From Robertkochia aurantiaca (GTDB lineage: Bacteria > Bacteroidota > Bacteroidia > Flavobacteriales > Flavobacteriaceae), in the NCBI RefSeq assembly GCF_020166495.1, contig NZ_JAINZS010000001.1:248001-312000 (forward strand): 64,000 bases of DNA. The letters are read 5' to 3'. The position numbers were made by a program, and so were the translations under genes. Shown in pieces: positions 1 through 37,175 of this stretch (within the stretch, counting starts at the first letter, position 1; each line of letters starts with the position of its first letter). Under the pieces are notes generated by a model, which did no database searches, was not told the origin of the DNA, and saw nothing but the letters and a program-made list of their open reading frames with translations.

Positions 1-1383
1 GATCATGGCAAAGACCTCCATCACGTTGAGCATATCCCGGTTATTACTGATGATATACCGGTTACACCCCTGTTCTCCGTTGTTATTCTGAATGGTTTTG
101 ATCGCGTAGATCGACTCAAGGGTTTTCCGCGCCATTTCATGTTTGAAAAGATTCGGATTCAGCTTGCCCTCTACTTTGGCGAGAACCTTGATCTGTTTTT
201 CCTTTGAAAGCTTTTCATAATCAGGCGGGAAAATATCCAGACCGAGATCCCTTGATTCCTTTACAATATTGGTGAACACATCATGATGCACCCTGGAATC
301 CTGGCGTATATCGAGACTGGCGAAATAGAAACCGAAGAGTTTCATTTTATTCAGCAGGTCATCCACCTCACTTACGAAAAGCGACTGATGCCGCGTAACA
401 AGTATTTCCCTGACCTCCTTCAGGGTATTGATCGACTCTTCAGCAGTAATAGTGGTTCTTCCGTTTTCAAGGAAAATATTTTCATAAAGTTTTGATTCCA
501 GATCGGTGATCAGCTCTTCCACCATTTTGAAGGTCAGCCTGCGACGCAGTTTCCTGACATCTCGGTAATAGTTTTTCAAAATGGTACTTCTTAAACGATC
601 GGCCACCTTTAGGGTGATCTCTGTTGTGACAAAAGGATTTCCGTCCCGATCACCTCCCGGCCAGAATCCCAGATTTAGCACCTGGTTTTCAAGTTCATCC
701 CGCTGGAAAAGATTTTGATCGATATAGTTGTAAATAGTACTTATCGATTGATAGAACACATTTTCAAGATACCATATCAGGCTTACGGCTTCATCGTAGG
801 GCGTTGGCTTTTCCTTCTTAAAAAAGGGGGTTTTGCCCAATTGAGCCAAAAGCTTTTTAATATAAACCAGGTCATTCTGGCGAATGGCTTCAGAAAGGTC
901 TGTAATGATCCCCAGAACAGAACCGGGATAGAATTGGGTCGGGTGTGCCGTAAGCACCGGTCTCACCTTAAAATGACGAAAGAACTCTTTGAGTCGCTCC
1001 TGCTTATTGCTCCCTTCGGCCTCCTCCTTGATATTCCGGAGCGTTCCGCGGCCATCCATGTTATTAACCACAGGGAAAGCAGCATCTTCAATAGCATCAA
1101 AAAGTACAACCTGTCTTTCTATATACTGAATAAACCTGAATAACAGGTCATAGCGTTCTTCGTCATTGGGGTTTTCCAGATATTTCGAAAAGAACTGTTC
1201 TACGATCTCTTCAGGGTTATTATTGGCTTCATACCCCTTTTCACAGATCTCAGTGAACAATGGCAACATCACCCCTGTGTTGGTGATCTCATCGAAGGGA
1301 AGGGTGATGAAAATACTGTTGTATATCTGGTACTTAGAAAGCACATGTTCATTGAATCGTTCTATCTTTGGTTTTCGAAGCAT
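1..1383 (-). CDS. ppc: Phosphoenolpyruvate carboxylase, 3' part cut off by window edge
   Basis: Carboxylates phosphoenolpyruvate to oxaloacetate in the cytoplasm, an anaplerotic step feeding the TCA cycle. Reading the minus strand from the ATG at 1383 gives 461 codons that stay open to base 1, about half of the roughly 850-900 residues usual for the family. Both N-terminal signatures are visible: TAHPTQF around residues 144-150, carrying the catalytic His, and FWPGGDRDGNPF around 239-250. The start follows the Lrp gene on the same strand, 82 nt downstream of its stop, with a terminator-like hairpin between them. The C-terminal half, including the second catalytic region and allosteric sites, lies outside the window. 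Identity is seen directly from the motifs and is secure. Confidence 0.95.
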   Translation of the reverse strand, partial: MLRKPKIERFNEHVLSKYQIYNSIFITLPFDEITNTGVMLPLFTEICEKGYEANNNPEEIVEQFFSKYLENPNDEERYDLLFRFIQYIERQVVLFDAIEDAAFPVVNNMDGRGTLRNIKEEAEGSNKQERLKEFFRHFKVRPVLTAHPTQFYPGSVLGIITDLSEAIRQNDLVYIKKLLAQLGKTPFFKKEKPTPYDEAVSLIWYLENVFYQSISTIYNYIDQNLFQRDELENQVLNLGFWPGGDRDGNPFVTTEITLKVADRLRSTILKNYYRDVRKLRRRLTFKMVEELITDLESKLYENIFLENGRTTITAEESINTLKEVREILVTRHQSLFVSEVDDLLNKMKLFGFYFASLDIRQDSRVHHDVFTNIVKESRDLGLDIFPPDYEKLSKEKQIKVLAKVEGKLNPNLFKHEMARKTLESIYAIKTIQNNNGEQGCNRYIISNNRDMLNVMEVFAMI

Positions 1384-1406
1384 AGTATATTTTTTAAAAA
1401 TTAAAA

Positions 1407-1437
1407 AGCCCTCTCAGGCATATTAGCTGAGAGGGCT
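1407..1437 (-). terminator. Intrinsic terminator after the Lrp gene
   Basis: An 11-bp perfect inverted repeat (AGCCCTCTCAG / CTGAGAGGGCT) with a 9-nt loop is followed on the minus strand by a T-rich tract (TTTTTAATTTTT). It sits 28 nt past the Lrp stop and only 24 nt before the ppc start, so ppc must either be transcribed from a promoter overlapping this hairpin or depend on read-through. Confidence 0.8.
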
Positions 1438-1464
1438 GAAATTCGTTAAAATTCCCAGTCAGCT

Positions 1465-1944
1465 TTATAAATTGCTGAAAATTGTATGCATGAGTCTTTT
1501 CTTATCGTTCAGACTCTCTTCAAGGGAAATCATTGTCTCTGTGCGACTTACGCCGTCAATGTCATCGATTTTGAAGATGATTTCTTTGGCATGTTTGGTG
1601 TCTTTAGCTCTGACCTTGCAGAAAATATTAAATTTCCCGGTTGTGATATGAGCTACGGTAATATAAGGAATCTCACTTAATCTCTCCAATACAAATTTGG
1701 TCTGGTGTGTCTTTTCCAGAAAGATACCTACATAGGCTATGAAAGAGTACCCCAGTTTCACATAATCAAGTGTCAGGGAAGATCCCTTGATGATGCCTGC
1801 ATCTTCCATTTTTTTAACCCTTACGTGCACTGTACCGGCTGAGATCAGCAACTTCTTTGCTATATCTGTAAAAGGCGTTCGGGTGTTGTCGATTAACATG
1901 TCAAGGATCTGATGATCAACCTCGTCTAGTTTAAATTTCGCCAT
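1465..1944 (-). CDS. Lrp/AsnC family transcriptional regulator
   Basis: A 159-aa feast/famine regulator. Residues about 5-60 form the winged HTH (LDEVDHQILDMLIDNTRTPF, then an AKKLLISAGTVHVRVKKM recognition region). Residues about 70-145 form the RAM ligand-binding domain (IAYVGIFLEK, then ITTGKFNIFCKVRAKD). Such proteins act as dimers or octamers and respond to amino acids; the effector here cannot be read from sequence. Length is normal for the family. It lies upstream of ppc on the same strand, separated by a terminator. Immediately upstream of its ATG the DNA is strongly AT-rich (TTTTTAATAATCTTTAATTA on the minus strand), consistent with a promoter region. Confidence 0.92.
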   Translation of the reverse strand: MAKFKLDEVDHQILDMLIDNTRTPFTDIAKKLLISAGTVHVRVKKMEDAGIIKGSSLTLDYVKLGYSFIAYVGIFLEKTHQTKFVLERLSEIPYITVAHITTGKFNIFCKVRAKDTKHAKEIIFKIDDIDGVSRTETMISLEESLNDKKRLMHTIFSNL

Positions 1945-2020
1945 TATTTTTAATAATCTTTAATTAAAACACAAATTAACTAAGAAAATCGCAAATTATA
2001 ACTAAATAAGCTGTGGTTTT

Positions 2021-3169
2021 TTACCGAAAACGATGTAGTAACATTGAATTATTCTCAAAAACCTCCTCTAGGAAGTCGGGAGTGATCTCTGCCGCCGCTC
2101 TGGATTCCATCCTGATCAAATCTGAAGAGACCTCAGAATGCCCGTATTTGTCATTCAAAGAACCAAAATCGGCCAGTTCGGGCCTAAAGATGATATTGTT
2201 GTTTTTCTTGACTTCTTTTAACTGTATTCCCAGGTTGACCTCCTCCCCCTCACTGAACCGGTATCCAGTGATGATCAGATCGTAGAATCGTTTTTCATTT
2301 TCGGGTATGGAAAAATAAGCTGTATGAGGAACCTGCAACGACTTTATCTCTATAAAGCCTTCCAGTAGCCGAACCAGGCTCATAGCTACATATTTGCGTG
2401 TATTTTCACGCATATAATCCCCGGGAAAATGACCTGCTTCGAACAAAATGGTGGGAATACCAAGAGACTGAAACTGGTCACCCACACAATTATCGTTAAA
2501 TGCGTCGTCATATCTCCCTACGCATCCCGGGATAAATTTCTCAAGGTACTCTCTCATAAGTGCGATAAGCCTCATACTTTGCTTGCGAACCTCTGTTACA
2601 CTTCTGTCAGGATCGACCGATGGCGAAAGAAATGATACAGTTGCCGGCTTGCGTGCACTACCTGCGCTAAAGATCGTACGCTGATCATGCAGGTTTAAAC
2701 AAAGTTGCGGATTAACCAGGTCAAGGGCTTTTCTGAGAAACCGGCTTTCCGGCTGTGTCAGATCTTTGGCATCCCTGTTCAGATCTACTCCGTTTGCATT
2801 GAACCGTGTATAGGCATTGGCTCCGTCAGGGTTTAAAACGGGGATAAAATAAAAGCTGATGTTTGATTCGAAATAATCTCTGAAGGCCTCATTCTGACGT
2901 ATAAAATACAAGAGATCAAGAAGCGCTTTCGTGGTGGTGCTTTCATTCCCGTGCATTTGAGACCAGGCCAGTATACGACGTTCACCAGAACCTATACGAT
3001 AGAGATATAAGGGTTCATCCTCTACAGACTGTGCCTGCAATTCCGGGTTCAGGAAGTCAAAAATTTGAAGAGCCTTGTAGATTTCGGAAGATGGTAAATA
3101 ACGCCCGTATACTTTCGGGTGTCTGAAATCATTCTCATATCCTTGTTCAAAGTATGTGGTGTGTGTCAT
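2021..3169 (-). CDS. M14 family zinc carboxypeptidase
   Basis: A metallocarboxypeptidase-fold hydrolase. Visible M14 elements are HGNEST (the HxxE zinc ligands), LNPDGANAYTRFNANGVDLN (substrate-pocket Asn/Arg region), LNLHDQ (third zinc-ligand His) and FEAGHFPGDY (catalytic Glu). I place the start at the ATG at 3169 (382 aa). The reading frame extends to a TTG at 3190, but that TTG lies inside an operator-like dyad and only five bases separate the dyad from the ATG. No clear signal peptide is seen, so it may be cytoplasmic; the substrate is unknown. It is divergent from the XRE regulator and shares its repeat-rich control region, so co-regulation is plausible. Confidence 0.88.
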   Translation of the reverse strand: MTHTTYFEQGYENDFRHPKVYGRYLPSSEIYKALQIFDFLNPELQAQSVEDEPLYLYRIGSGERRILAWSQMHGNESTTTKALLDLLYFIRQNEAFRDYFESNISFYFIPVLNPDGANAYTRFNANGVDLNRDAKDLTQPESRFLRKALDLVNPQLCLNLHDQRTIFSAGSARKPATVSFLSPSVDPDRSVTEVRKQSMRLIALMREYLEKFIPGCVGRYDDAFNDNCVGDQFQSLGIPTILFEAGHFPGDYMRENTRKYVAMSLVRLLEGFIEIKSLQVPHTAYFSIPENEKRFYDLIITGYRFSEGEEVNLGIQLKEVKKNNNIIFRPELADFGSLNDKYGHSEVSSDLIRMESRAAAEITPDFLEEVFENNSMLLHRFR

Positions 3170-3483
3170 ATATGTTACAAAGGTAAACAAGCCTTCAGTT
3201 ACAATTGTAAACGAAAGAAATTGACAAATGTAAACCTATTTAAAGCGTTGGTGATAATATTAAAACGGGGTACTGTTACATTCGTAAACACTTGAGCAGC
3301 AATGTCTTCGATATATCGCTAATTTTAGTTTATTAATTTGATAATCAATAAGTTAGGTGTGCTTATTTAAAGCTGCTATTCAAATATTTAACTAGTGTTT
3401 GTTAGTGATTTATCTACTATTTACAATTGTAATTATTTATTTTATTACATTTGTAACATACTAACGCGCTTAATTTGTTTACA
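3170..3483. promoter_or_regulatory. Divergent control region with about seven copies of a 15-bp dyad
   Basis: This 314-bp gene-free stretch separates the M14 peptidase and the XRE gene. Copies of a dyad with core TTACAnnnGTAA occur at 3174-3188, 3198-3212 (GTTACAATTGTAAAC, the most symmetric), 3221-3235, 3275-3289, 3420-3434, 3444-3458 and 3478-3492. The last covers the XRE ATG at 3484. Start-to-start spacing is repeatedly 23-24 bp. Copies at 3444 and 3221 contain TACATTTG, matching the Bacteroidota -7 box TAnnTTTG, on the plus and minus strand respectively; the copy at 3174 contains TACCTTTG on the minus strand. Inference: binding sites of the adjacent XRE protein, repressing itself and the peptidase. 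Confidence 0.7.
3427..3453 (+). promoter_or_regulatory. Probable promoter of the XRE-lipoprotein-TerC operon
   Basis: A TTG at 3427-3429 and TACATTTG at 3446-3453, 16 nt apart, resemble the Bacteroidota TTG/TAnnTTTG promoter. Each element is embedded in one of the dyad repeats, so a protein bound to the dyads would block RNA polymerase. The start codon follows at 3484. Confidence 0.55.
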
Positions 3484-3918
3484 ATGGTGAACAGTGATGA
3501 ATTTACAACCCGACTGGAAAAAATACTTGAATATTATGGCCTTACTGCCTCTGCCTTTGCAGACAGGATCGGTGTACAGCGATCTTCATTATCTCATCTT
3601 CTCTCAGGCAGAAATAAACCCAGCCTCGATTTCGTAATGAAAACCATTGATGAATTCAGAGAAGTAGATCTTTACTGGCTTTTAAATGGCAAAGGATCAT
3701 TCCCGAAATCTCCGGCAACGGTGATTCAAAATAAGGCGGGCACTGATCTCTTTTCTGATAATACTGATGAGAAATATGATTCTGAAGCGAAAGATTCAAA
3801 CGATCTTCCTCCTGCCGGGACTGCTGAAAATAATGCTTCCGGTGAGACTACTGAAAAACAGATAAGCCGCATTGTGATATTCTACAGTAATGGTACCTTT
3901 GAGGAGTTCAAAAAATAA
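3484..3918 (+). CDS. XRE family HTH transcriptional regulator
   Basis: A 144-aa DNA-binding protein with an N-terminal lambda-repressor-like HTH (residues about 8-60; ASAFADRIGVQRSSLSHLLS is the helix-turn-helix). A low-complexity acidic linker follows (about 75-120), then a short hydrophobic tail (SRIVIFYSNGTFEEFKK) that looks like a small oligomerisation or peptide motif. The start is the ATG at 3484; an in-frame TTG at 3475 also exists but lies within the last operator-like repeat. The stop is 5 nt before the lipoprotein gene, so regulator, lipoprotein and TerC form one operon. The surrounding dyad repeats suggest autoregulation (inference). The inducing signal is not evident; there is no LexA-like protease domain. 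Confidence 0.88.
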   Translation: MVNSDEFTTRLEKILEYYGLTASAFADRIGVQRSSLSHLLSGRNKPSLDFVMKTIDEFREVDLYWLLNGKGSFPKSPATVIQNKAGTDLFSDNTDEKYDSEAKDSNDLPPAGTAENNASGETTEKQISRIVIFYSNGTFEEFKK

Positions 3919-3923
3919 TTCTT

Positions 3924-4304
3924 ATGAAGTATCTGTGGCTGCTTTTACCGGCAGTATCACTGTTGTTGACCGGTTGTTACCAAAATGAAAGGAATTGTAC
4001 AAAATTCCATAACGGCACCTTTGAATTCTCTTACACCATAGAAGGGGAAAAACGAAGCAGTACCTTTGTTCGCAATGATTCCATGGAAATTGATTTCTAT
4101 GAGAACCGCACTGATACCAACAGCGTTCGCTGGCTCAATGATTGCGAATTCATCGTTAAAAAACTCAATGCAAATTCTATCAGGGAAGAAAAGCCGATTC
4201 ATATAAAAATTTTAAGTACCTCAGATAATTCCTATATTTTTGAATATTCCCTGGTGGGAGACAATAAGAACAAACAGAAAGGAAAAGCTACTAAAATCAA
4301 TTGA
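3924..4304 (+). CDS. Small lipoprotein of unknown function
   Basis: A 126-aa protein with a lipoprotein signal peptide (lipobox LLTGC, Cys18), so probably anchored in an outer or inner membrane leaflet. The mature part is small and beta-rich, with conserved-looking TSTFVRNDSMEI- and SVRWLNDCEFIVKKL-like segments; here these read SSTFVRNDSMEID and SVRWLNDCEFIVKKL. A second Cys pair (Cys24 region and DCEF) could form a disulfide. From memory, homologues in Flavobacteriia are sometimes labelled DNA topoisomerase IV, which this sequence does not support: there is no gyrase or topoisomerase domain. It lies between the XRE regulator (5 nt) and terC (2 nt), so it is co-transcribed with them. Function unknown. 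Confidence 0.82.
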   Translation: MKYLWLLLPAVSLLLTGCYQNERNCTKFHNGTFEFSYTIEGEKRSSTFVRNDSMEIDFYENRTDTNSVRWLNDCEFIVKKLNANSIREEKPIHIKILSTSDNSYIFEYSLVGDNKNKQKGKATKIN

Positions 4305-4306
4305 TC

Positions 4307-5125
4307 ATGTTTGAGATCTTCGCGAGCGCAGATGCGTGGGTTGCCCTTCTTACACTTACCTTCTTAGAGATCGTTCTCGGTATTGACAATATCGTTTTCA
4401 TATCGATCGCGGCCAATAAATTACCGAAGGAACAACAAAGAAAGGCTACCAATATCGGATTGTTGCTGGCAATGGTCCAACGTATACTGTTGTTAATGGC
4501 CGTCTCTTTTCTGGTAGGACTTAAGAATCCCTTCTGGTACATCGACAGTTCCTGGTTATCTGCGGGTATCAGCTGGCAAAGCGTCATCTTGTTCGCAGGA
4601 GGGTTATTTCTTCTATTCAAAAGCACCTCAGAAATACACGAAAAAGTAGAGCTACCCAGGCATGATGAGAAAGAACTAAAGAAAAAGAAGATTTCTTCCC
4701 TTTCCCATGCTATTTTTCAGATCATTATCATTGACTTCATTTTTTCGATAGACTCGATCCTAACAGCAGTGGGAATGACAAATGGAATCAGTCCTGATCC
4801 CGACGACGCCCTGGTGATCATGATTATAGCCGTTGTGATCTCTATCCTGGTAATGATGATATTCGCAAATGGTATCAGAAATTTTATCAACCGTCACCCA
4901 TCTATGCAATTGCTGGCGCTGTCATTTCTGATCCTGATAGGATTTATGCTCATAGCTGAGGCAGCTCATCTTTCGCATACGGTCATTTTCGGACAGTCGA
5001 TCGGGGCAATCCCAAAAGGTTACCTGTATTTTGCGATAGCCTTTTCTTTAGGGGTTGAAGTTTTAAACATGAGACTGTGCAAACGTACCGAGGTCTCTGG
5101 TGCTCTCGAGGAAGTCGATCATTAA
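4307..5125 (+). CDS. TerC family integral membrane protein
   Basis: A 272-aa inner-membrane protein with about seven hydrophobic segments. TerC hallmarks are the acidic membrane motifs EIVLGIDNIVFISI near the N-terminus and DFIFSIDSILTAVGM in the middle, whose Asp residues are thought to bind or move metal ions. The family is linked to tellurite resistance and, in other bacteria, manganese export and metal loading of exported enzymes. Start is the ATG at 4307, two bases after the lipoprotein stop. A charged loop (about 105-130, KVELPRHDEKELKKKKI) separates the two halves. It converges with the acylase gene, with 10 nt between stops. Substrate cannot be decided from sequence. Confidence 0.92.
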   Translation: MFEIFASADAWVALLTLTFLEIVLGIDNIVFISIAANKLPKEQQRKATNIGLLLAMVQRILLLMAVSFLVGLKNPFWYIDSSWLSAGISWQSVILFAGGLFLLFKSTSEIHEKVELPRHDEKELKKKKISSLSHAIFQIIIIDFIFSIDSILTAVGMTNGISPDPDDALVIMIIAVVISILVMMIFANGIRNFINRHPSMQLLALSFLILIGFMLIAEAAHLSHTVIFGQSIGAIPKGYLYFAIAFSLGVEVLNMRLCKRTEVSGALEEVDH

Positions 5126-5135
5126 TCTGCTAACA

Positions 5136-7241
5136 TCACTTTTCTCCCACATCAGGCTCAGTAAAAGATCCGTCTTTCAACACTTGTTTGGTGACCATAT
5201 GATTTTTTACATCTTCGGGATAAAAATAAACCTTGCGCAATTGTTTTTTGGAGAACAGCTCCAGCTGATCACCGAAATGAGGAGAGTCTCTTTGTGTCGA
5301 GTTCCCGTAACTTAACAAGGCATTTGCTTTGATCTTTTCCCCGAACTCGATAACCGAAACCCAGGAATCTCCCCCGGTCACCCAGGCTTGTTTCTCATTA
5401 GAAGCTCCCGGCCAGGCGACCCGGTAAATGCCCAGGTACCCCGGGCTTCCATTTGCGGGCAGGTTCTTACCGGCGTATTCAATACGGTAATAATCTCCCC
5501 ATGCTACGTCGATCTTTCCAAAATTCTCTTTCAGCTGAAGGGCAGCATTCTCCAGAACTTCCAGGGCTCTTGCAGGATCGGCGATTCCGTCAGGCGTATT
5601 TACAGGGTCATTCATGTTCCACGGTGTCGTGTAATTATTCGGGTCTTGTAAACCATAATTTCTTGCCCAATTGTAAAACAACAACATGCCTTTGCTATGC
5701 GTGTCTGCTTTCCTGTCCCATTTCTCAAGTACTGATACAGCCTCCTTTACTACGGGCGAGGTGGTTCCTGATGCTGCAAGGAAAAGATCATCTAAAAGCC
5801 GGTCAGCAGATTCAATATGGGTAGAATGTTTATAGTCAATCAGCTCTTCAAAGCTGATCTTTTCGTCGTTCATGATCATTTTGGCCGAACGCTGCGGTCT
5901 GAACCCCATGTAAACGGGGGCGAAATAGCCGGGGTAATCATCGGCATTTAGAACGGAAGGAATAGTGCTCGTCCACGGAGGGTCATTTGCATTCTGCAAC
6001 CAACCGCTTACAGGATTTTTTAGTTTCGGCAATTCTTCATAGCTGTGATATCCTGTCCAGATATTTTCAGAGCTGTTCCCCGGCACGATACCAGACCAAT
6101 AGTTCCAATCATTAATATTCCTTTTCGGGATTCGTCCATTATAGAGATAATATATATTTCCTTCCTTATCTGCGTATAGAATATTCCAGAAAGGAATCTG
6201 TGTTTTGCTTACCGCAGCCTCGAAATCCTGAAAATTTTCTGCCTGTCCCATTTCCCACCATTGCATTAGCATATTTTCTGCATCATACCCCGTTATCCTG
6301 ATAGCCAGAGCCTTATCTCCCTCCTGCTTCACCACCGGACCGTGTCTCGAATTGAGCACAACAAATTCATGTTCTTTGGAGGATCCATCAGCCTGGCGTA
6401 CTTCAACCGTTTTCACCTGCTTGTCGAAAGCAACTTCTTCCCCATCGATTACATAACCATTTTCCGTCAGCGTTAATTCATACAAATCGGCATTATCGAT
6501 CGTGTTATTGGTATGTGTCCATCCCAGCTTGTCGTTGAACCCTATTCCGATACCCGGTAATCCCACCAGGATACTGCCGTAAAGATTGGTGTTGTCAAGA
6601 TTCAGGTGATTTTCCCAGAACATGAATTCATCAGACCACGGGAGATGCGGGTTTTGTACCAGCATAGCATTACCGGTGGTTGTTCGATCAGGGCCTATTG
6701 CATACGCGTTTGACCCCAGTTCAGGCCATCTCTGACTGATCTGAAGCTCTCTTCCTGCAACAAACCTTGTGAAGATCACAAAGTGAGCATGCATAAGAAT
6801 ATCTTTCGGTGCTAGCGGAAGAATCCCTTTGTTTTCTTCCAGTATTGCCTCCGGATGCGAGCTCGCATAGTCGTTCAGACCCTTCACGAATGATTCGATC
6901 ATTCTTTTCTGATCCGGATCCTGTGTTTTAAGCCATTGGTCTGCCAGTTCTGAAAAACCAAGCGTACTCACCATGATATCACCGGGCAGATATTCTGCAC
7001 CCCAATGGCTGGCGGCCTCTCCTCTTGAATTCCCGAGTAATTTCAAAATGAGATTTGCGTGACTGTGCATCTGAGCCCAGCCCTGGGCATAAAACAATTC
7101 TTCAAAATCCTGTGCATAAATATGGGGTACTCCCCATTCATCCCATATGATATGCGTGCTCTTATCGTTCTGACCGAAAAGCGCCCCGGAAAAACACAAC
7201 AAAGTGATGATCCCGAAACTAAAAATGAATAATTTCTTCAT
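5136..7241 (-). CDS. Penicillin acylase family protein (peptidase S45), secreted
   Basis: A 701-aa N-terminal nucleophile hydrolase precursor with a Sec signal peptide (hydrophobic 4-22, cleavage near LFGQ). The alpha-chain begins with the usual DEWGVPHIYA. The nucleophile is Ser177 in ELGSNAYAIGP, where autocleavage would release the beta-chain; NPHLPW and the C-terminal SYGNSTQRDSPHFGDQ are typical S45 elements. Family members hydrolyse amide bonds of acylated amines such as penicillins or N-acyl-homoserine lactones; the substrate here is not determined. A long perfect inverted repeat lies 12 bp upstream of the ATG. A second, nonsense-interrupted acylase is found at 58145-60310. Complete and apparently intact. 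Confidence 0.93.
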   Translation of the reverse strand: MKKLFIFSFGIITLLCFSGALFGQNDKSTHIIWDEWGVPHIYAQDFEELFYAQGWAQMHSHANLILKLLGNSRGEAASHWGAEYLPGDIMVSTLGFSELADQWLKTQDPDQKRMIESFVKGLNDYASSHPEAILEENKGILPLAPKDILMHAHFVIFTRFVAGRELQISQRWPELGSNAYAIGPDRTTTGNAMLVQNPHLPWSDEFMFWENHLNLDNTNLYGSILVGLPGIGIGFNDKLGWTHTNNTIDNADLYELTLTENGYVIDGEEVAFDKQVKTVEVRQADGSSKEHEFVVLNSRHGPVVKQEGDKALAIRITGYDAENMLMQWWEMGQAENFQDFEAAVSKTQIPFWNILYADKEGNIYYLYNGRIPKRNINDWNYWSGIVPGNSSENIWTGYHSYEELPKLKNPVSGWLQNANDPPWTSTIPSVLNADDYPGYFAPVYMGFRPQRSAKMIMNDEKISFEELIDYKHSTHIESADRLLDDLFLAASGTTSPVVKEAVSVLEKWDRKADTHSKGMLLFYNWARNYGLQDPNNYTTPWNMNDPVNTPDGIADPARALEVLENAALQLKENFGKIDVAWGDYYRIEYAGKNLPANGSPGYLGIYRVAWPGASNEKQAWVTGGDSWVSVIEFGEKIKANALLSYGNSTQRDSPHFGDQLELFSKKQLRKVYFYPEDVKNHMVTKQVLKDGSFTEPDVGEK

Positions 7242-7253
7242 GATTTGGTGATT

Positions 7254-7275
7254 ATTTACTATAAATATAGTAAAT
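7254..7275. promoter_or_regulatory. 22-bp palindrome between acylase and mgtC-like gene
   Basis: Perfect 10-bp arms ATTTACTATA and TATAGTAAAT are separated by AA. It ends 12 bp before the acylase start codon (minus strand) and overlaps TATATTTA, which resembles a -7 box on that strand. Candidate operator for the acylase, possibly also for the divergent MgtC operon starting at 7390. Confidence 0.55.
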
Positions 7276-7389
7276 TATATTTGCTGTAATGGAGGTCGTA
7301 TTAACCTCCTATATAATCTGGTTAACATATATCATATAAACTTATACTTTAATTAAAGCTTTACTTTAATATCAACCTATGCCACCGAT

Positions 7390-7836
7390 ATGATAGAGGA
7401 AATCACAATGGACTGGGTGTTAACGAAGGAATTTATTCTAAGGGCTCTGCTGGCCCTGCTTTCAGGATTGCTCATCGGATTGGAAAGAGAGTTTAAAGGG
7501 AAAAGTGCAGGTCTGAAGACCAATGCCCTGGTGGCGTTGGGGGCTGCCATATTTGTAACGGCCTCCCTGAAATTCGCCGGTGAGGATTATGTTGACATGA
7601 CCAGGGTGCTCGGACAAGTCGTGGCAGGTATCGGTTTTCTGGGAGCCGGAACCATCATTCAGCAACAAGATAAGGTGAAGGGGCTTACCACAGCTGCCAC
7701 CATCTGGTGCAGTGCAGCATCAGGTTGCCTGTCGGCTCTTGGTATGTATGCTGAACTTTTATTTATAACTGCTATCGTGGTTGTTTTTAATTTCATCTTT
7801 GGCATAATCGATAAAAAGATCGGCCCTAAAAACTGA
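7390..7836 (+). CDS. MgtC/SapB family membrane protein
   Basis: A 148-aa inner-membrane protein with four to five hydrophobic helices and the MgtC signature GLLIGLEREFKGKSAGLKTN followed by ALVALGAAIFV and a Gly-rich VAGIGFLGAGTIIQ helix. It lacks the C-terminal ACT-like domain of Salmonella MgtC and is therefore the short SapB type. In pathogens MgtC inhibits F-type ATPase and supports growth at low Mg2+; in environmental bacteria the role is less clear. ATG at 7390 was taken, but the in-frame ATG at 7408 is also possible. First gene of a tight three-gene operon with pcm (9 nt gap) and the membrane protein at 8574. Confidence 0.9.
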   Translation: MIEEITMDWVLTKEFILRALLALLSGLLIGLEREFKGKSAGLKTNALVALGAAIFVTASLKFAGEDYVDMTRVLGQVVAGIGFLGAGTIIQQQDKVKGLTTAATIWCSAASGCLSALGMYAELLFITAIVVVFNFIFGIIDKKIGPKN

Positions 7837-7845
7837 TAGAAGTAT

Positions 7846-8565
7846 ATGAGAACAAAAAGGATCGTTGCCAGCACGAAATATTTGATCTTTATTTTACTTA
7901 GTCTTGGCATGGTGTCGTTAACCGCAGGGCAGAACGATTATGCTGCTGAAAGAAATGAGATGGTTGAGGAACAAATTCGAAACAGGGGTATTGCTGATAA
8001 AGATATTCTACGCGCCATGAAAACAGTTGAGCGTCATAAACTGGTACCTCCGGAACAAAGACGTTTTGCCTATGATGACCGCCCCCTGCCCATTGGTCAC
8101 GGTCAAACCATTTCACAACCCTATATAGTAGCTTTTATGACCGATGTTATCGATCCGCGATCAGATATGAAAGTACTGGAGGTGGGAACGGGATCAGGGT
8201 ATCAGGCGGCCGTGCTGGCAGAAATCGTTTCTCACGTTTACACCATTGAAATTATAGAGCCTTTAGCAAAAAAAGCATCTGATAACCTTAGAGAGCTGGG
8301 GTATGATAATATCACAGTAAAACATGCCGACGGTTATTTTGGCTGGAAGGAACACGCACCATTTGATGCCATTATCGTAACAGCAGCAGCCTCTTACATT
8401 CCCCCGGAATTGTTCGCACAACTTAGAGATGATGGCAAAATGATCATTCCGGTTGGTGCAAATTTTGCTCCTCAGCAACTCGTTCTGGTCACTAAAAGAA
8501 AAAATGGTAAGATGAAAACAAAAAACCTGATGCCAGTAAGGTTTGTTCCCTTTACCAGGGATTAG
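7846..8565 (+). CDS. pcm: Protein-L-isoaspartate O-methyltransferase with signal peptide
   Basis: A 239-aa SAM-dependent enzyme that methylates isoaspartyl residues in damaged proteins, starting their repair. SAM-binding motif I is VLEVGTGSGYQAAVLAE; the isoAsp-binding region is DRPLPIGHGQTISQPYIVAF, with the conserved QTISQP; DGYFGWKEHAPFDAIIVTAA is motif II. The first 29 residues are basic then hydrophobic (YLIFILLSLGMVSLTAGQ), indicating export to the periplasm, unlike the cytoplasmic E. coli enzyme. A cytoplasmic form from an internal start is less likely because the next Met is after the signal. It lies between mgtC-like and spermidine-synthase-like genes with 8-9 nt gaps, so the three are co-transcribed. 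Confidence 0.93.
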   Translation: MRTKRIVASTKYLIFILLSLGMVSLTAGQNDYAAERNEMVEEQIRNRGIADKDILRAMKTVERHKLVPPEQRRFAYDDRPLPIGHGQTISQPYIVAFMTDVIDPRSDMKVLEVGTGSGYQAAVLAEIVSHVYTIEIIEPLAKKASDNLRELGYDNITVKHADGYFGWKEHAPFDAIIVTAAASYIPPELFAQLRDDGKMIIPVGANFAPQQLVLVTKRKNGKMKTKNLMPVRFVPFTRD

Positions 8566-8573
8566 AACAGATT

Positions 8574-10973
8574 ATGAAAATTGCTTCCCGATTAACCATA
8601 AGCATTTTATTGCTTTCCATATCCATGATTGCATATCAGGTTACTCTTATGCGTCAGCTTTCTATTACCCAGTGGTACCACTTTGCTTATATGGTTATAG
8701 CCATTGCCATGCTGGGATTCGGTTTTTCCGGCACCTTCCTTGCCTTATTTAAAAGATGGTTATCGGCGACAGACCCGCAAAAGCAGTTATACGTGATCTC
8801 CATTATCATCATGATGTCGGGAATAAGTATGCCCCTCTGCGCAGAACTTTCAACACTTGAGCCAATACGTTTTGACAGTTATGAATTATTCGTCGATCGG
8901 GCTGTACCTCTGAAACTCGTCATAACCTGCCTGCTGCTAATGGTGCCGTTTTTCTTTACCGCGCTTGCCTTGGGACTCAGCTTTTACAGGTTCCCAAAAG
9001 ATATTGGTAAACTGTATTTTGCCAACCTTTCCGGTTCAGGCCTGGGCGCGATAGCGGTGCTTTTTCTTCTTTCGCAATTGCCGGTACGCCCTATCATTTA
9101 CTCCCTTGCATTGATTGCCTGGATTTCGGGCTTCTTATTGCTGCCATTTAATAAAAGATTCGTTATCAATAAAGGAGCTCTGTTCTCTTATTGTATCGCA
9201 TTCATCACTTTCACCACGATATTCTGGTTGCCTTCCCGGTCGGTGAACTCTCCTTACAAAAGTATCGAAACAGTTCTGCAGCTTCCTGACTCAAAAAAAG
9301 TCTATAGTAAGAACAGTATTTACGGACTAATCGAAGCAGTAAGGGCTCCTTCCCTGCGTTATGCTCCGGGTATCAGTATGATTTACACAGATACTATACC
9401 AAGGGTAGAGGCTCTGTTCAACAATGGTAATTGGCAGGGAACTATTCCTCTGGAACCTGCTTATGCTAAAAGAGCGCTCAGGTATACCACGCCGTTTATC
9501 CCTTTTGAATTGGCCGGCAAAGACAGGGCTCTCATCTTAGGTGATGGCACCGGAAACCGCAGTCTTTTGGCACACGAAGTGAGATACATTGGTATTACCG
9601 GAGTAGAAAGCATGCGTCCTGTTACAGAGCGGTATCAGGCTATAGTCGGAATTGTCAATAATGAACAGCATGCGGTATTCACCCGACATTTTCTCAATAA
9701 GACGAAAAACTCATACAACCTTATCAGCTTTCCTACATGCGGGGTTCCCGGCGGTGGAAGCGGGTTGAATGCTATCCAGGAAAACTACCTGTATACACGC
9801 GAAACTTTTAAAGAAGCAGCCGAAAGGTTGACTGCTGATGGGGTCATAGAGGCAAGCAGCTATATAGATTATCCTTACAGGGTTCCCTTGCGGTTACTTT
9901 CAACCATGTTCGAAGGAATTAAGGGAGAAATACCTGAGAATACTGATCCTGAAGATTATCTTCTGGCGGTAAGGAGCTGGAATATGATCAGCTATTTCTT
10001 TAAAAAAAATGGTTTTTCTCCTCAGGAATTAACTTTCGTGCGGCAGGAATGTGAGCAAAAAGGGTTCGATCCCCTGATATTTCCTGATTTGACCGTTGAG
10101 GAGCGTAGCTACAATAACGAGTTGGAAGATGAAAGTCTTTTTCGGGCTACAGACGCTATTTTGAACGGGCGGCTGAAAGAGTTTCAAAAAAATTACCCTT
10201 TCAAGATAGAAGCGGTTACCGATAACCAACCCTATTTCGCTCAATTTCTCAAGATCGAAAACCTGAGAGCTCTTTTAAGTACCTTCGGATTTCAGGGCAC
10301 AGGCTTTCTGGAATTGGGCTACCTCATTCTGCTGATCACGATATTACTGTTGATTTTCCTGGCTTTTTTAATGATCCTTCTCCCACTGATATGGAAAAGG
10401 TCGGCCGAGAAGTTACCCCTGTGGGTTGGGATCTATTTTCCGGCTATTGGCATCGGTTTTATGTTTACTGAGATCGTGCTCATACAACGCTTCATTCTCT
10501 TTCTTGAAGATCCGGTAATAAGTGTCTCAGTTGTAATAGGTTCCTTGCTCGCAGCATCTGGAGCAGGCAGTTATTTCTCAGAAACCGTCTCTTCTTTCGA
10601 CAGAACAGGATATGGAGTCTTCCTGATCCTGGTATTGATTCTCTGCGTCTATCCCTGGCTGCTTTCAACGGGTTTCGAGGCTCTTCATATGCTTAACAGC
10701 TGGCAGAGATATGCGGTATCTGCCGTATTGATCAGTCTTCCCGGATTTTGCATGGGAATGATGTTTCCTAAGGGTATGAAACAGCTTACAGGTTCATCTG
10801 TAAACCATATTCCATGGGCCTGGGGACTGAATAATTATTTTTCGGTGATCGCTTCTTCTGTGGCGGTTTTATTGTCGATAAACACAGGTCTTACCACGGT
10901 GTTTTACCTTGGCGCCGTTTGTTATCTTCTGGCAGCTTTCGCAATAAATCATCTTCAAAAAACCTCCCGATGA
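8574..10973 (+). CDS. Membrane protein with spermidine-synthase-like domain
   Basis: A 799-aa protein: an N-terminal block of about seven membrane helices (residues 10-230), a soluble domain (about 240-560) with a SAM-binding-like Rossmann segment (ALILGDGTGNRSLLAHEVRY then GVESMRPV), and a C-terminal membrane block (about 575-795). The soluble part resembles spermidine synthase in its LYTRETFKEAAERLTADGV region. The catalytic Asp expected in the preceding loop is not seen; the segment reads ISFPTCGVPGGGSG. It is therefore probably not an ordinary aminopropyltransferase. Possible roles are a membrane-embedded SAM-dependent transferase or a transporter-like protein. Last gene of the mgtC-pcm operon; its stop is 11 nt from the convergent parC stop. 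Confidence 0.8.
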   Translation: MKIASRLTISILLLSISMIAYQVTLMRQLSITQWYHFAYMVIAIAMLGFGFSGTFLALFKRWLSATDPQKQLYVISIIIMMSGISMPLCAELSTLEPIRFDSYELFVDRAVPLKLVITCLLLMVPFFFTALALGLSFYRFPKDIGKLYFANLSGSGLGAIAVLFLLSQLPVRPIIYSLALIAWISGFLLLPFNKRFVINKGALFSYCIAFITFTTIFWLPSRSVNSPYKSIETVLQLPDSKKVYSKNSIYGLIEAVRAPSLRYAPGISMIYTDTIPRVEALFNNGNWQGTIPLEPAYAKRALRYTTPFIPFELAGKDRALILGDGTGNRSLLAHEVRYIGITGVESMRPVTERYQAIVGIVNNEQHAVFTRHFLNKTKNSYNLISFPTCGVPGGGSGLNAIQENYLYTRETFKEAAERLTADGVIEASSYIDYPYRVPLRLLSTMFEGIKGEIPENTDPEDYLLAVRSWNMISYFFKKNGFSPQELTFVRQECEQKGFDPLIFPDLTVEERSYNNELEDESLFRATDAILNGRLKEFQKNYPFKIEAVTDNQPYFAQFLKIENLRALLSTFGFQGTGFLELGYLILLITILLLIFLAFLMILLPLIWKRSAEKLPLWVGIYFPAIGIGFMFTEIVLIQRFILFLEDPVISVSVVIGSLLAASGAGSYFSETVSSFDRTGYGVFLILVLILCVYPWLLSTGFEALHMLNSWQRYAVSAVLISLPGFCMGMMFPKGMKQLTGSSVNHIPWAWGLNNYFSVIASSVAVLLSINTGLTTVFYLGAVCYLLAAFAINHLQKTSR

Positions 10974-10984
10974 GTCAGTCGCAA

Positions 10985-13600
10985 TTAGTCAAGCTCCATA
11001 CTGATTTGTGAATCTGCACCTCCTTTTTCATCACCCTGAGAATCGACTTCCTCTTCATCTACCACATCGTAATCGGCAGCCTCCTTTTTCTCCGGTTCCT
11101 CGTAGGGTATCGGATCCAGAAGATTGATGTTTTTCACCTTATCAGGTGTAAGCTGATTCCCCAATGCCTTAATTCCTTTCACAGCGATGAACTCTTCGAG
11201 ATCTACCTCCAAATTAGGTTTCGGATCTTTTCCTCTTGGCTTGACGAACTCCACCTCAATACGAGGTTTCCAGTCTGTTGAAACCAATTCTAAAAAGGAC
11301 TTGGGATGCTCTGATATTATTACTTCTTCCTTTCCTTCGTTCTCTATCAGGAATCGCTTAACATGATAGCGCTCCTTTTCACCTTCATAATGCACGGCTG
11401 AAACTGGCTTTTCAGGATTCCATTTCTCGAGAACAACCATATTATCGTCGAAATGGGTGGTCAGCTCAGGAACGATGGTCTTCACCAGTCCGTCAGAATT
11501 TATGACCAACAACCTGTCTTCGCCCTTGAAGGCTCCCAGTAATTCTCCCCTTCCGTCTACATTGAGACGTTTTACAGTCTCATCGAACCATATTTTACGA
11601 GGTTTAAGGGTTGACACGCCTTTCTCCTTCAGCTCTATGCGTTTAACGGGATACTTGGTCACTATATTACCCTTGGAGTTACGGCCTTTGATCATGATAT
11701 CGGCAAAATCGATATCCCATTTCAGTTTCTTGATACTTCCTTTCTGTCTCAGGTGAACCGTTACCACCTCGGCCTCACCATTCGGATTGGCGGTAAAATA
11801 CAGAACGCTGGAACCGGCTTTACCTGTGGTCAGATCATACTCCCGGTCACGGGTCATGCTGGACACATAAAATCTTTTGATATATGTGGCTCCGCCTTTA
11901 CCATCTCTGTATATCATGTTGTAAATGGTGCGCTTGTCTTTCTTTTTAAAGACAGCCACATGAATAATATCCTTACCTACGAAGGTCTTGGAATCAACCT
12001 TGGTGACCATCATTTTACCGCTGGCGGTAAAAACTATAATATCATCTATATCGCTGCAATCACAGACATATTCGTCTTTTTTCAGAGAGGTTCCAATGAA
12101 CCCTTCTTCCCGGTTCACATACAGCTTGCTGTTTCGTATCACTACCTTTGATGCCTCGATATCATCAAAGATTCTGATATCGGTCTTGCGCTCACGGCCA
12201 CTGCCATAGTTCTTTTTCAGCTCCTTAAAATAATCTACGGCGTAATCGATCAGGTTATCGAGGTTAAACTTCACCTTTTCGATCTCTCCCTCCAGGGCTT
12301 CAATTTTCTGCTGGGCCTTATCGATATCGAATTTGGAGATACGTTTGATCCGTATCTCGGTAAGTCTAGCAATATCTTCTTCAGTGACTTCTCTTTTCAG
12401 ATGGCCGATATAAGGCTTTAACCCTTTATCTATCGCTTGTATAACACCTTCCCAGGTTTCCTCTTCCTCGATATCGCGGTAAATACGGTTTTCTATAAAG
12501 ATCCTTTCGAGAGAAGCAAAATGCCACTGCTCTTCCAGTTCCTGGAGCTGTATCTCCAGCTCTTTTTTAAGCAATTCCACCGTATAATCTGTTGACCTTC
12601 TGAGAATTTCAGAAACCCCGATGAACAGCGGTCTGTTATCTTCGATCACACAGGCAAGTGGTGATATAGAGGTTTCGCACGCTGTAAAGGCATACAGAGC
12701 ATCGATGGTCTTATCAGGAGATAAACCTGAAGGCAAATGAACCAGGATCTCTACTTCGGCAGCGGTATTGTCTTCAATACGTTTTACCTTGATCTTCCCT
12801 TTGTCATTGGCTTTAAGAATAGAGTCGATCAGGGAGGATGTATTTGTTCCGAAAGGTATTTCGTTGATCACCAGGGTGTTTTTATCCATCTGGGAGATCT
12901 TGGCCCTGACGCGTATACGACCGCCACGGTTCCCGTCATTGTAATTGCTTACGTCCATCTCCCCTCCTGTCGGAAAGTCGGGATACAGTTTGAACCGTTT
13001 ACCTCTTAAGTGTTTGATCGAGGCATCGATCAGTTCATTGAAATTATGCGGAAGAATTTTGGTGGAAAGACCTACAGCGATACCTTCAGCTCCCTGGGCC
13101 AGTAAGAGCGGGAATTTAACCGGCAGATTGATAGGTTCTTTCTTTCTCCCGTCGTAGCTCAACTGCCAGTCGGTGATCTTCGGACTATACACTACATCCA
13201 GGGCGAATTTTGATAGCCTGGCTTCGATATACCTGGATGCTGCGGCGCTGTCTCCGGTAAGAATATTACCCCAGTTTCCCTGAGTATCGATCAGCAGATC
13301 TTTCTGTCCGATCTGTACCATGGCGTCTCCGATACTGGCATCACCGTGAGGGTGGTATTGCATGGTATGCCCAACGATATTGGCTACTTTATTGTACCTG
13401 CCGTCGTCGAGTTCTTTCATAGAGTGCAGTATTCTTCGCTGCACGGGTTTAAATCCGTCTTCAATGGCTGGAACGGCTCTCTCCAGAATTACATAGGAGG
13501 CATAATCGAGAAACCAGTCCTTGTACATGCCACCAACTTTCGTAATGGTGTCTTGCTGATTATGATTTTCTTCGTTGTTCAGATTGTTTTCTTCAGACAT
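10985..13600 (-). CDS. parC: DNA topoisomerase IV subunit A
   Basis: An 871-aa type IIA topoisomerase breakage-reunion subunit that decatenates daughter chromosomes together with ParE. The active-site Tyr is Tyr124 in AAASRYIEARLSKF. The quinolone-pocket motif is HPHGDASIGDAMV, where the position equivalent to GyrA Ser83 is Ala, as I recall from other Bacteroidota. The C-terminal part carries the DNA-wrapping repeats (for example AEVVTVHLRQKGSIKKLKWD) and ends in an acidic low-complexity tail after about residue 830. It lies 40 nt downstream of parE on the same strand, so the two are one operon. The partner gene parE and the absence of a GyrA box favour topoisomerase IV over gyrase. Confidence 0.93.
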   Translation of the reverse strand: MSEENNLNNEENHNQQDTITKVGGMYKDWFLDYASYVILERAVPAIEDGFKPVQRRILHSMKELDDGRYNKVANIVGHTMQYHPHGDASIGDAMVQIGQKDLLIDTQGNWGNILTGDSAAASRYIEARLSKFALDVVYSPKITDWQLSYDGRKKEPINLPVKFPLLLAQGAEGIAVGLSTKILPHNFNELIDASIKHLRGKRFKLYPDFPTGGEMDVSNYNDGNRGGRIRVRAKISQMDKNTLVINEIPFGTNTSSLIDSILKANDKGKIKVKRIEDNTAAEVEILVHLPSGLSPDKTIDALYAFTACETSISPLACVIEDNRPLFIGVSEILRRSTDYTVELLKKELEIQLQELEEQWHFASLERIFIENRIYRDIEEEETWEGVIQAIDKGLKPYIGHLKREVTEEDIARLTEIRIKRISKFDIDKAQQKIEALEGEIEKVKFNLDNLIDYAVDYFKELKKNYGSGRERKTDIRIFDDIEASKVVIRNSKLYVNREEGFIGTSLKKDEYVCDCSDIDDIIVFTASGKMMVTKVDSKTFVGKDIIHVAVFKKKDKRTIYNMIYRDGKGGATYIKRFYVSSMTRDREYDLTTGKAGSSVLYFTANPNGEAEVVTVHLRQKGSIKKLKWDIDFADIMIKGRNSKGNIVTKYPVKRIELKEKGVSTLKPRKIWFDETVKRLNVDGRGELLGAFKGEDRLLVINSDGLVKTIVPELTTHFDDNMVVLEKWNPEKPVSAVHYEGEKERYHVKRFLIENEGKEEVIISEHPKSFLELVSTDWKPRIEVEFVKPRGKDPKPNLEVDLEEFIAVKGIKALGNQLTPDKVKNINLLDPIPYEEPEKKEAADYDVVDEEEVDSQGDEKGGADSQISMELD

Positions 13601-36875: not shown

Positions 36876-37175
36876 TTGATTAGTTTTTTGGTTTTATGCT
36901 GCCAAAATTATGTCACCTCCCCCTAAAGGGTGTTAAGGGGTTTTAGTCAATACATTATGTAAAGCTTATTCTAATGTTAAAACGTTAAGCCGAGGTTAGT
37001 ATTTAGACTCATTCCTGATTGTAAGAGCATATTCTGTCGATGTTTTCAAATCTCATACAACTGTAATCAATTGACCTTCAGCACATAAGTGTTTTGCCGG
37101 AAATCATAATCATCGCAGCACTCATGAAATGCCGCATAATTGGTTATTTTTAGCTGAGAATAAAATCAAAAACAT
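36876..37175. other. 300-bp divergent intergenic region
   Basis: No gene is seen between the PhoX-like gene and the S10 peptidase. Two tandem half-sites (TAAAGGG at 36924-36930 and TTAAGGGG at 36933-36940; CCCTTTA and CCCCTTAA on the minus strand) lie about 50 bp before the PhoX-like start and resemble the half-site spacing of response-regulator operators. TATTTTTA at 37145-37152 may be the -7 box of the peptidase. The remainder is AT-rich without recognisable structure. Confidence 0.4.

Follow-up and report, generated by a model that had tools for sequence, protein, structure and literature searches.

Results

The locus and its dyad array

The window, the whole stretch of 64,000 nucleotides of Robertkochia aurantiaca DNA that was analysed, contains a gene for an XRE-family regulator that lies divergent to a gene for an M14 zinc peptidase and is followed by genes for a small lipoprotein and a TerC-family membrane protein (Table 1). 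The two divergent ATG codons (M14, 3169 on the minus strand; XRE, 3484) are separated by 314 bp and not by the 323 bp given in the first-pass annotation, but the array of seven dyads that it described between them is present, each copy one base off the start assigned to it. These TTACAnnTGTAA-like dyads span 3175-3490 and follow one another at distances of 24, 23, 54, 145, 24 and 34 bp, so the step of 23-24 bp does occur three times among the six. From dyad 1 to dyad 7 they carry 1, 0, 1, 1, 0, 0 and 2 mismatches to TTACANNTGTAA. As had also been described, dyad 1 starts 5 bp from the M14 ATG, while dyad 7 extends into the XRE gene and takes in its ATG.

The array stands out from chance. Within 3170-3492 there are six dyads with at most one mismatch, versus a mean of 0.10 and a maximum of 3 in 5000 dinucleotide shuffles, and the rest of the window has a single such dyad, at position 37055. 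The genome-wide motif scan that had been proposed as a check finds exact TTACANNTGTAA at 10 places in the organism's own genome, 3 of them in the array (reversed-pattern control, 4). The 16-mer GTTTACANNTGTAAAC with up to three mismatches occurs 187 times, versus 135 for its reversed pattern, and its two-mismatch places number 9, again with 3 in the array. Thus, given the counts in the window and in the genome, the motif is locally concentrated and is no genome-wide feature.

Table 1. Features of the locus (window coordinates; dyads are given as 12-mer cores)
Feature	Position	Strand	Remarks
Divergent M14 zinc peptidase	2021..3169	-	presumed second target
Operator dyad 1 (putative), TTACAAAGGTAA	3175..3186		includes minus-strand -7 box TACCTTTG (3178-3185)
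Operator dyad 2 (putative), TTACAATTGTAA	3199..3210		
Operator dyad 3 (putative), TGACAAATGTAA	3222..3233		includes minus-strand -7 box TACATTTG (3225-3232)
Operator dyad 4 (putative), TTACATTCGTAA	3276..3287		
Operator dyad 5 (putative), TTACAATTGTAA	3421..3432		
Operator dyad 6 (putative), TTACATTTGTAA	3445..3456		plus-strand -7 box TACATTTG (3446-3453); predicted start site ~3458
Operator dyad 7 (putative), TTACAATGGTGA	3479..3490		two mismatches; spans XRE ATG (3484-3486)
XRE regulator, 144 aa	3484..3918	+	HTH ~residues 4-70, disordered linker, C-terminal beta hairpin 129-143
Small lipoprotein	3924..4304	+	no family match; presumed co-transcribed with XRE
TerC-family membrane protein	4307..5125	+	presumed co-transcribed with XRE

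The XRE protein matches Pfam HTH_19, HTH_3 and Phage_CI_repr, all above cut-off. In its predicted structure the HTH domain is modelled with confidence and the C-terminal hairpin, which has the conserved motif RIVxFYxDGTF, fairly so, with a disordered linker between the two. The nearest solved folds include those of C.BclI, C.AhdI, SinR, 434 Cro, P22 c2 and DdrO (best E 3.3e-3, the fold search giving no match with E below 0.001). Together, the Pfam and fold matches identify an HTH domain of the XRE/CI type. The protein is not taken for a HigA antitoxin, which scores 20.9 bits in NCBIfam against a cut-off of 47.7, and its neighbours are the lipoprotein (no match), TerC and M14; PADLOC returned weak HTH matches only. 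The M14 protein has one weak match in the PDB, to a putative carboxypeptidase, and Rfam reports no known RNA element at the gathering threshold in window positions 1-12000. In one relative (L002) an MgtC-like gene follows the lipoprotein gene, at the position that TerC occupies in the window; the window's own gene at 7390-7836 is presumably MgtC-like as well, judging by its sequence.

Conservation of the array with the XRE gene

The XRE gene is detected in 378 of 395 Flavobacteriaceae genomes (E 1e-12). We compared 95 related XRE loci, namely 29 beyond the window's own (60 genomes searched, own included; 52 with a match) and 66 from a contig search, a set that contains near-duplicates (e.g. 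L003/L035) and about 25 similar Flavobacterium loci. Counted over 330 bp upstream of XRE plus 12 bp, and allowing one mismatch, at least one dyad is found at 94 of the 95 and at least two at 85, and the array is conserved. Dyad density at the same loci is 10.6 per kb upstream of XRE versus 0.12 per kb elsewhere (344 dyads in 32.4 kb versus 72 in the remaining 586.6 kb), and shuffles of the upstream stretches predict 10 dyads where 344 are observed.

Likewise, of 20 further XRE relatives (16 belonging to other families, 4 to the same one), 19 have at least one dyad, the sole exception being L119; these are 20 of the 22 matches that previously had no locus, G013 and G019 being left out. None of 12 XRE paralogues has a dyad (13 were taken, of which L107 was dropped as it was not located by BLAST). 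Distant relatives of Bacteroidota type occur in records titled Glaciecola amylolytica (L091), Chitinophaga pinensis (L079) and Chryseobacterium gleum (L089), and the organism names on these records may be wrong.

As for the neighbours, a divergent M14 gene is found at 71 of the 95 loci (26 of the 29 and 45 of the 66), including all of L031-L070. The lipoprotein and TerC genes stand beside XRE at only part of the related loci, and neither has a match at E 1e-5 in the Flavobacterium loci. The TerC and lipoprotein genes, proposed earlier as parts of a host operon, are presumably co-transcribed with XRE here; the conserved partner of XRE is the divergent M14 gene. Dyads remain with XRE even at loci without detected M14 or Lrp. 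Repeated dyads at the XRE gene's own promoter are both conserved and dependent on the gene, with one exception at a contig edge that is described below.

Natural loss of XRE

Where M14 is kept and XRE is missing (14 loci, 330 bp upstream of M14), 12 loci have no dyad and two, L187 and L190 of the same genus, have one; each of 54 XRE-positive loci has 2-6, so the two distributions do not overlap. The XRE-positive side was drawn from 57 loci, comprising 29 (L002-L030) and 28 of the 66 others, a choice that limits near-identical Flavobacterium; L014, L016 and L020 have no M14 match and were not used, and the rows L003/L035 and L021/L063 are identical. Seventeen genomes of the family have no XRE match. 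G412 (no M14) and G654 (only a longer M14 paralogue) were excluded, as were G464, in which M14 and XRE are broken at contig edges and an XRE fragment was found, and G572; G049 (locus L182), of another order, without synteny and with 0 dyads, was left out, and G312 was added. The G572 locus (L192) is the exception mentioned above. No XRE gene was detected there, yet six dyads stand before M14, within positions 1-236 at the contig edge, where just 236 bp of upstream DNA are present; it was not entered in the loss test. We take this for an assembly gap that may hold its XRE gene; the locus may also be a counter-example.

The lipoprotein and TerC genes still adjoin M14 at 9 of the 14 XRE-negative loci and an Lrp gene lies beside M14 at all 14, and the loss therefore concerns XRE itself. 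A -7 box near the M14 ATG is seen at 8 of the 14, versus 45 of the 54 XRE-positive loci. The M14 tree calls for 8 changes of XRE presence, of which at least 5 fall on well-supported branches and are most simply explained by loss; two of its XRE-negative rows, L194 and L195, form long branches that join each other. All 5 of the independent pairs go in the expected direction, which with only 5 pairs gives p 0.0625.

Promoter boxes inside the dyads

The box of the primary sigma factor reads TAnnTTTG and occupies -12 to -5 of the start site, according to passages of a study of F. psychrophilum (PMC9723704). In the window, the two dyads said to contain such a box on opposite strands do so, and a third box, in dyad 1 on the minus strand, had been overlooked (Table 1). 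While TTACATTTGTAA has the -7 box in one direction and TTACAAATGTAA in the opposite one, the two look alike to a symmetrical dimer.

Over 72 loci, window included, the XRE-side dyads with a box number 57 pointing toward XRE and 5 pointing away (69 have neither), and those on the M14 side 67 toward M14 and 22 away (84 neither). When relatives are collapsed into 39 clusters of one row each, the ratio of outward to inward boxes is 28:5 on the XRE side and 35:15 on the M14 side (Fisher p 1.2e-6); of the 50 informative dyads on the M14 side, 15 have the box in the wrong direction. Outward -7 boxes overlap the dyads on the XRE side at 55 of the 72 loci, as judged from predicted start sites; the other 17, e.g. 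L061-L069, have no box-bearing dyad on that side, and most of them keep the start-codon dyad.

Dyad 5 contains a candidate -33-like TTG (3427-3429), with 16 nt between it and the -7 box; the spacing in F. johnsoniae is reportedly 17-23 nt. For B. thetaiotaomicron, the published passages describe a -33 element at variable spacing. On the XRE side of related loci the next upstream dyad, if any, is usually 35-36 bp off and not 24, while on the M14 side the 24-bp pair recurs, so that a TTG often stands at this distance there. It is conceivable from these patterns that a -33 box lies within a dyad on the M14 side.

The start-codon dyad

Where the match begins with residue 1 (72 loci), a dyad arm immediately precedes the XRE ATG at 63. 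With each cluster reduced to one row (29 rows), 27 of the 28 Asn codons at position 3 are AAC, whereas elsewhere in the genes AAC accounts for 98 of 252 Asn codons (p 1.5e-10). At position 2, 25 of the 29 codons have the ending TA, as do 28% of the Val, Ile and Leu codons elsewhere in the genes. The 9 loci without an arm before the ATG form a mixed control (at codon 3, AAC in 5, AAT in 3 and GAT in 1; at codon 2, the TA ending in 8), so the totals make the codon argument look stronger than it is. Plausibly the operator fixes XRE codon 3, and the codon 2 bias possibly has some other cause.

The start-codon stem (3475-3497) folds on its own at -6.2 kcal/mol with the AUG in the loop. Of three loci folded, the best mRNA fold contains this hairpin in the window and in L045 and lacks it in L033, and none of the longer folds stands out against shuffles (z -0.76, 0.61 and -0.68). 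The folding predictions leave a translational layer acting through the hairpin possible.

Spacing and further targets

Neighbouring dyads less than 60 bp apart (n=70) are separated by 24 bp in 22 cases and by 34-36 bp in 26. These two spacings differ by about one helical turn, and therefore suggest that adjacent dimers cooperate side by side; promoter geometry may also contribute to the spacings.

Exact TTTACANNTGTAAA occurs at 60 places in 37 genomes, versus 26 for the reversed pattern; 16 of the 60 are at the XRE locus, leaving 44 versus 26, a small excess. A wider regulon is not borne out, as of the 21 off-locus places inspected out of 44 (20 loci) 13 fall within reading frames, and none of the proteins beside them recurs between loci; across these places and the exact-pattern scans no recurrent second target was found. 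The organism's own genome has lone exact dyads upstream of one gene (L204:1001-1012) and beside another (L203:1001-1012), which we take to be fabI-like and biotin-synthase-like, respectively, from their first protein residues. The former was set aside as a target, given that a dyad with at most one mismatch lies upstream in only 4 of 30 loci, own included, and is not conserved.

Discussion

The array is real, conserved and functionally coherent, and we consider it highly probable that its dyads are operators of an autoregulated repressor of the CI/SinR fold, the XRE protein, that would occlude two divergent promoters. A dimer of the CI/Cro/SinR-type HTH would bind GTTTACAnnTGTAAAC-like dyads and cover the -7 box needed by sigma. 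The Bacteroidota -7 box TACATTTG forms part of TTACATTTGTAA and would be masked by a dimer bound there. Since one box points toward XRE and two toward M14, the protein would repress its own operon, which here also takes in the lipoprotein and TerC genes, as well as the M14 peptidase gene on the other side. The dyad over the XRE start codon would in addition block or road-block the protein's own gene. Neighbouring dimers would cooperate, given the spacings of 24 and 34-36 bp, and each genome appears to offer the protein a single target region. The conserved C-terminal hairpin may be the part that senses the signal. Cross-genome comparison brings out the sites, their dependence on XRE, the orientation of the boxes, the codon-3 bias and the lack of a recurrent second target; we infer binding by XRE, repression and cooperativity. 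The earlier proposal that XRE operators lie over bases used by RNA polymerase, so that the two would probably compete, is strengthened by the conservation of the array, its absence from paralogues, its disappearance with XRE, the outward boxes and the want of a recurrent second target.

Could the dyads instead be operators of another regulator that recognises TACA/TGTA, either a BlaI/MecI/CopY-type repressor or the neighbouring Lrp/AsnC protein? Passages of PMC7253601 give TACANNTGTA as the CopY operator core and TACA/TGTA as that of BlaI/MecI, there are three BlaI-family genes in the organism's own genome, and an Lrp gene adjoins M14 at all of L031-L070. Yet 11 of the 14 XRE-negative genomes have BlaI-family genes, and all 14 have Lrp beside M14, with 0-1 dyad. 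The BlaI family therefore does not explain the array, and as the dyads moreover accompany XRE into loci without detected Lrp or M14, another owner is very unlikely. That the dyads are mere symmetrical promoter boxes or mRNA hairpins we hold to be extremely improbable. The TACATTTG box alone makes up most of a dyad, and two of the three loci folded have the start-codon stem in their best structure, but boxes survive without a dyad at 8 of 14 XRE-negative loci, most dyads lie upstream of predicted start sites and share one common consensus, and the hairpin is absent from the best fold of L033, the three longer folds being unremarkable.

It is also unlikely that XRE binds the array and activates M14, or acts as an activator at low and a repressor at high dose. 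The C proteins of restriction-modification systems behave in the latter way, the C.BclI and C.AhdI structures are among the nearest folds, and on the M14 side several dyads stand upstream of the box that is closest to the M14 gene. However, many conserved dyads contain -7 boxes, which fits occlusion, and M14 persists in 14 genomes without XRE, at 8 of which a -7 box lies close to its ATG. Taking repression by occlusion as the preferred reading, one may go further and picture a family-wide threshold or bistable switch with a single target, built from a palindromic -7 box, in which operator, promoter and start codon would share the same letters, dimers would be phased at 24/35 bp, the operator may fix the initial M-V/I/L-N, and the M14 and XRE promoters would flip together on a signal read by the hairpin; as a whole this picture is doubtful, the more so for the mixed codon control.

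What does the array add? A regulator that is nearly universal in the sampled Flavobacteriaceae gains a predicted operator and a short target list. Its losses form a natural deletion series, in which the array goes with the XRE gene and the promoter box stays at 8 of 14 loci, and which is therefore a good model for operator decay after loss of the protein; the locus is also a model for a possible constraint at the DNA level on a protein's first codons. The class of mechanism, an autoregulated CI-type repressor with overlapping promoters, is well known. Within the literature searched, this XRE family, its operator and its layout appear undescribed: a full-text search, with most subscription papers outside its reach, gave, among the papers listed, no title or abstract start concerning this regulator.

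Several known systems invite comparison. The repressors of lambda (CI), P22 (c2) and 434 act from several operators over divergent promoters and regulate their own synthesis, and XRE shares with them the HTH fold, operators over divergent promoters and presumably autoregulation. Unlike the lambda-type arrays, the present one belongs to a gene detected in 378 of 395 Flavobacteriaceae genomes, faces a peptidase in place of a second repressor and has Bacteroidota -7 boxes inside its putative operators. The resemblance to phage switches noted in the first-pass annotation thus stands for fold and layout, but, judged by the M14 peptidase as divergent gene and by the detection of XRE in nearly all genomes of the family, the locus does not look like a phage lysis-lysogeny switch. 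SinR and the restriction-modification C proteins are likewise small HTH regulators with local or own-gene control; XRE presumably resembles them in this and differs in that no restriction-modification gene is found among the neighbours tested and in its extra C-terminal hairpin.

The operators of CopY, BlaI and MecI have nearly the same core as the XRE dyads, TACANNTGTA, in the passages of PMC7253601, but their regulator, Penicillinase_R (PF03965), is of another family, and such a system is rejected, as Penicillinase_R genes are present in 11 of the 14 XRE-negative genomes despite the lost array. The nearest described system that we met is that of the Bacteroidetes LexA-like SOS repressors, which, according to passages of PMC8565304, combine an S24 peptidase domain with a GGA-N5-TCC or CTAA-N5-TTAG operator and an SOS regulon. 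XRE is not such a LexA, in that Pfam gives it no S24 domain at E 0.001, its site is TTACA-N2-TGTAA and, as far as found, it has one target region. Both are nonetheless chromosomal phage-type HTH proteins of the same phylum, XRE being a putative repressor, with palindromic operators of fixed spacer, and several of the LexA promoters in PMC8565304 carry two or more operators, as does the XRE array.
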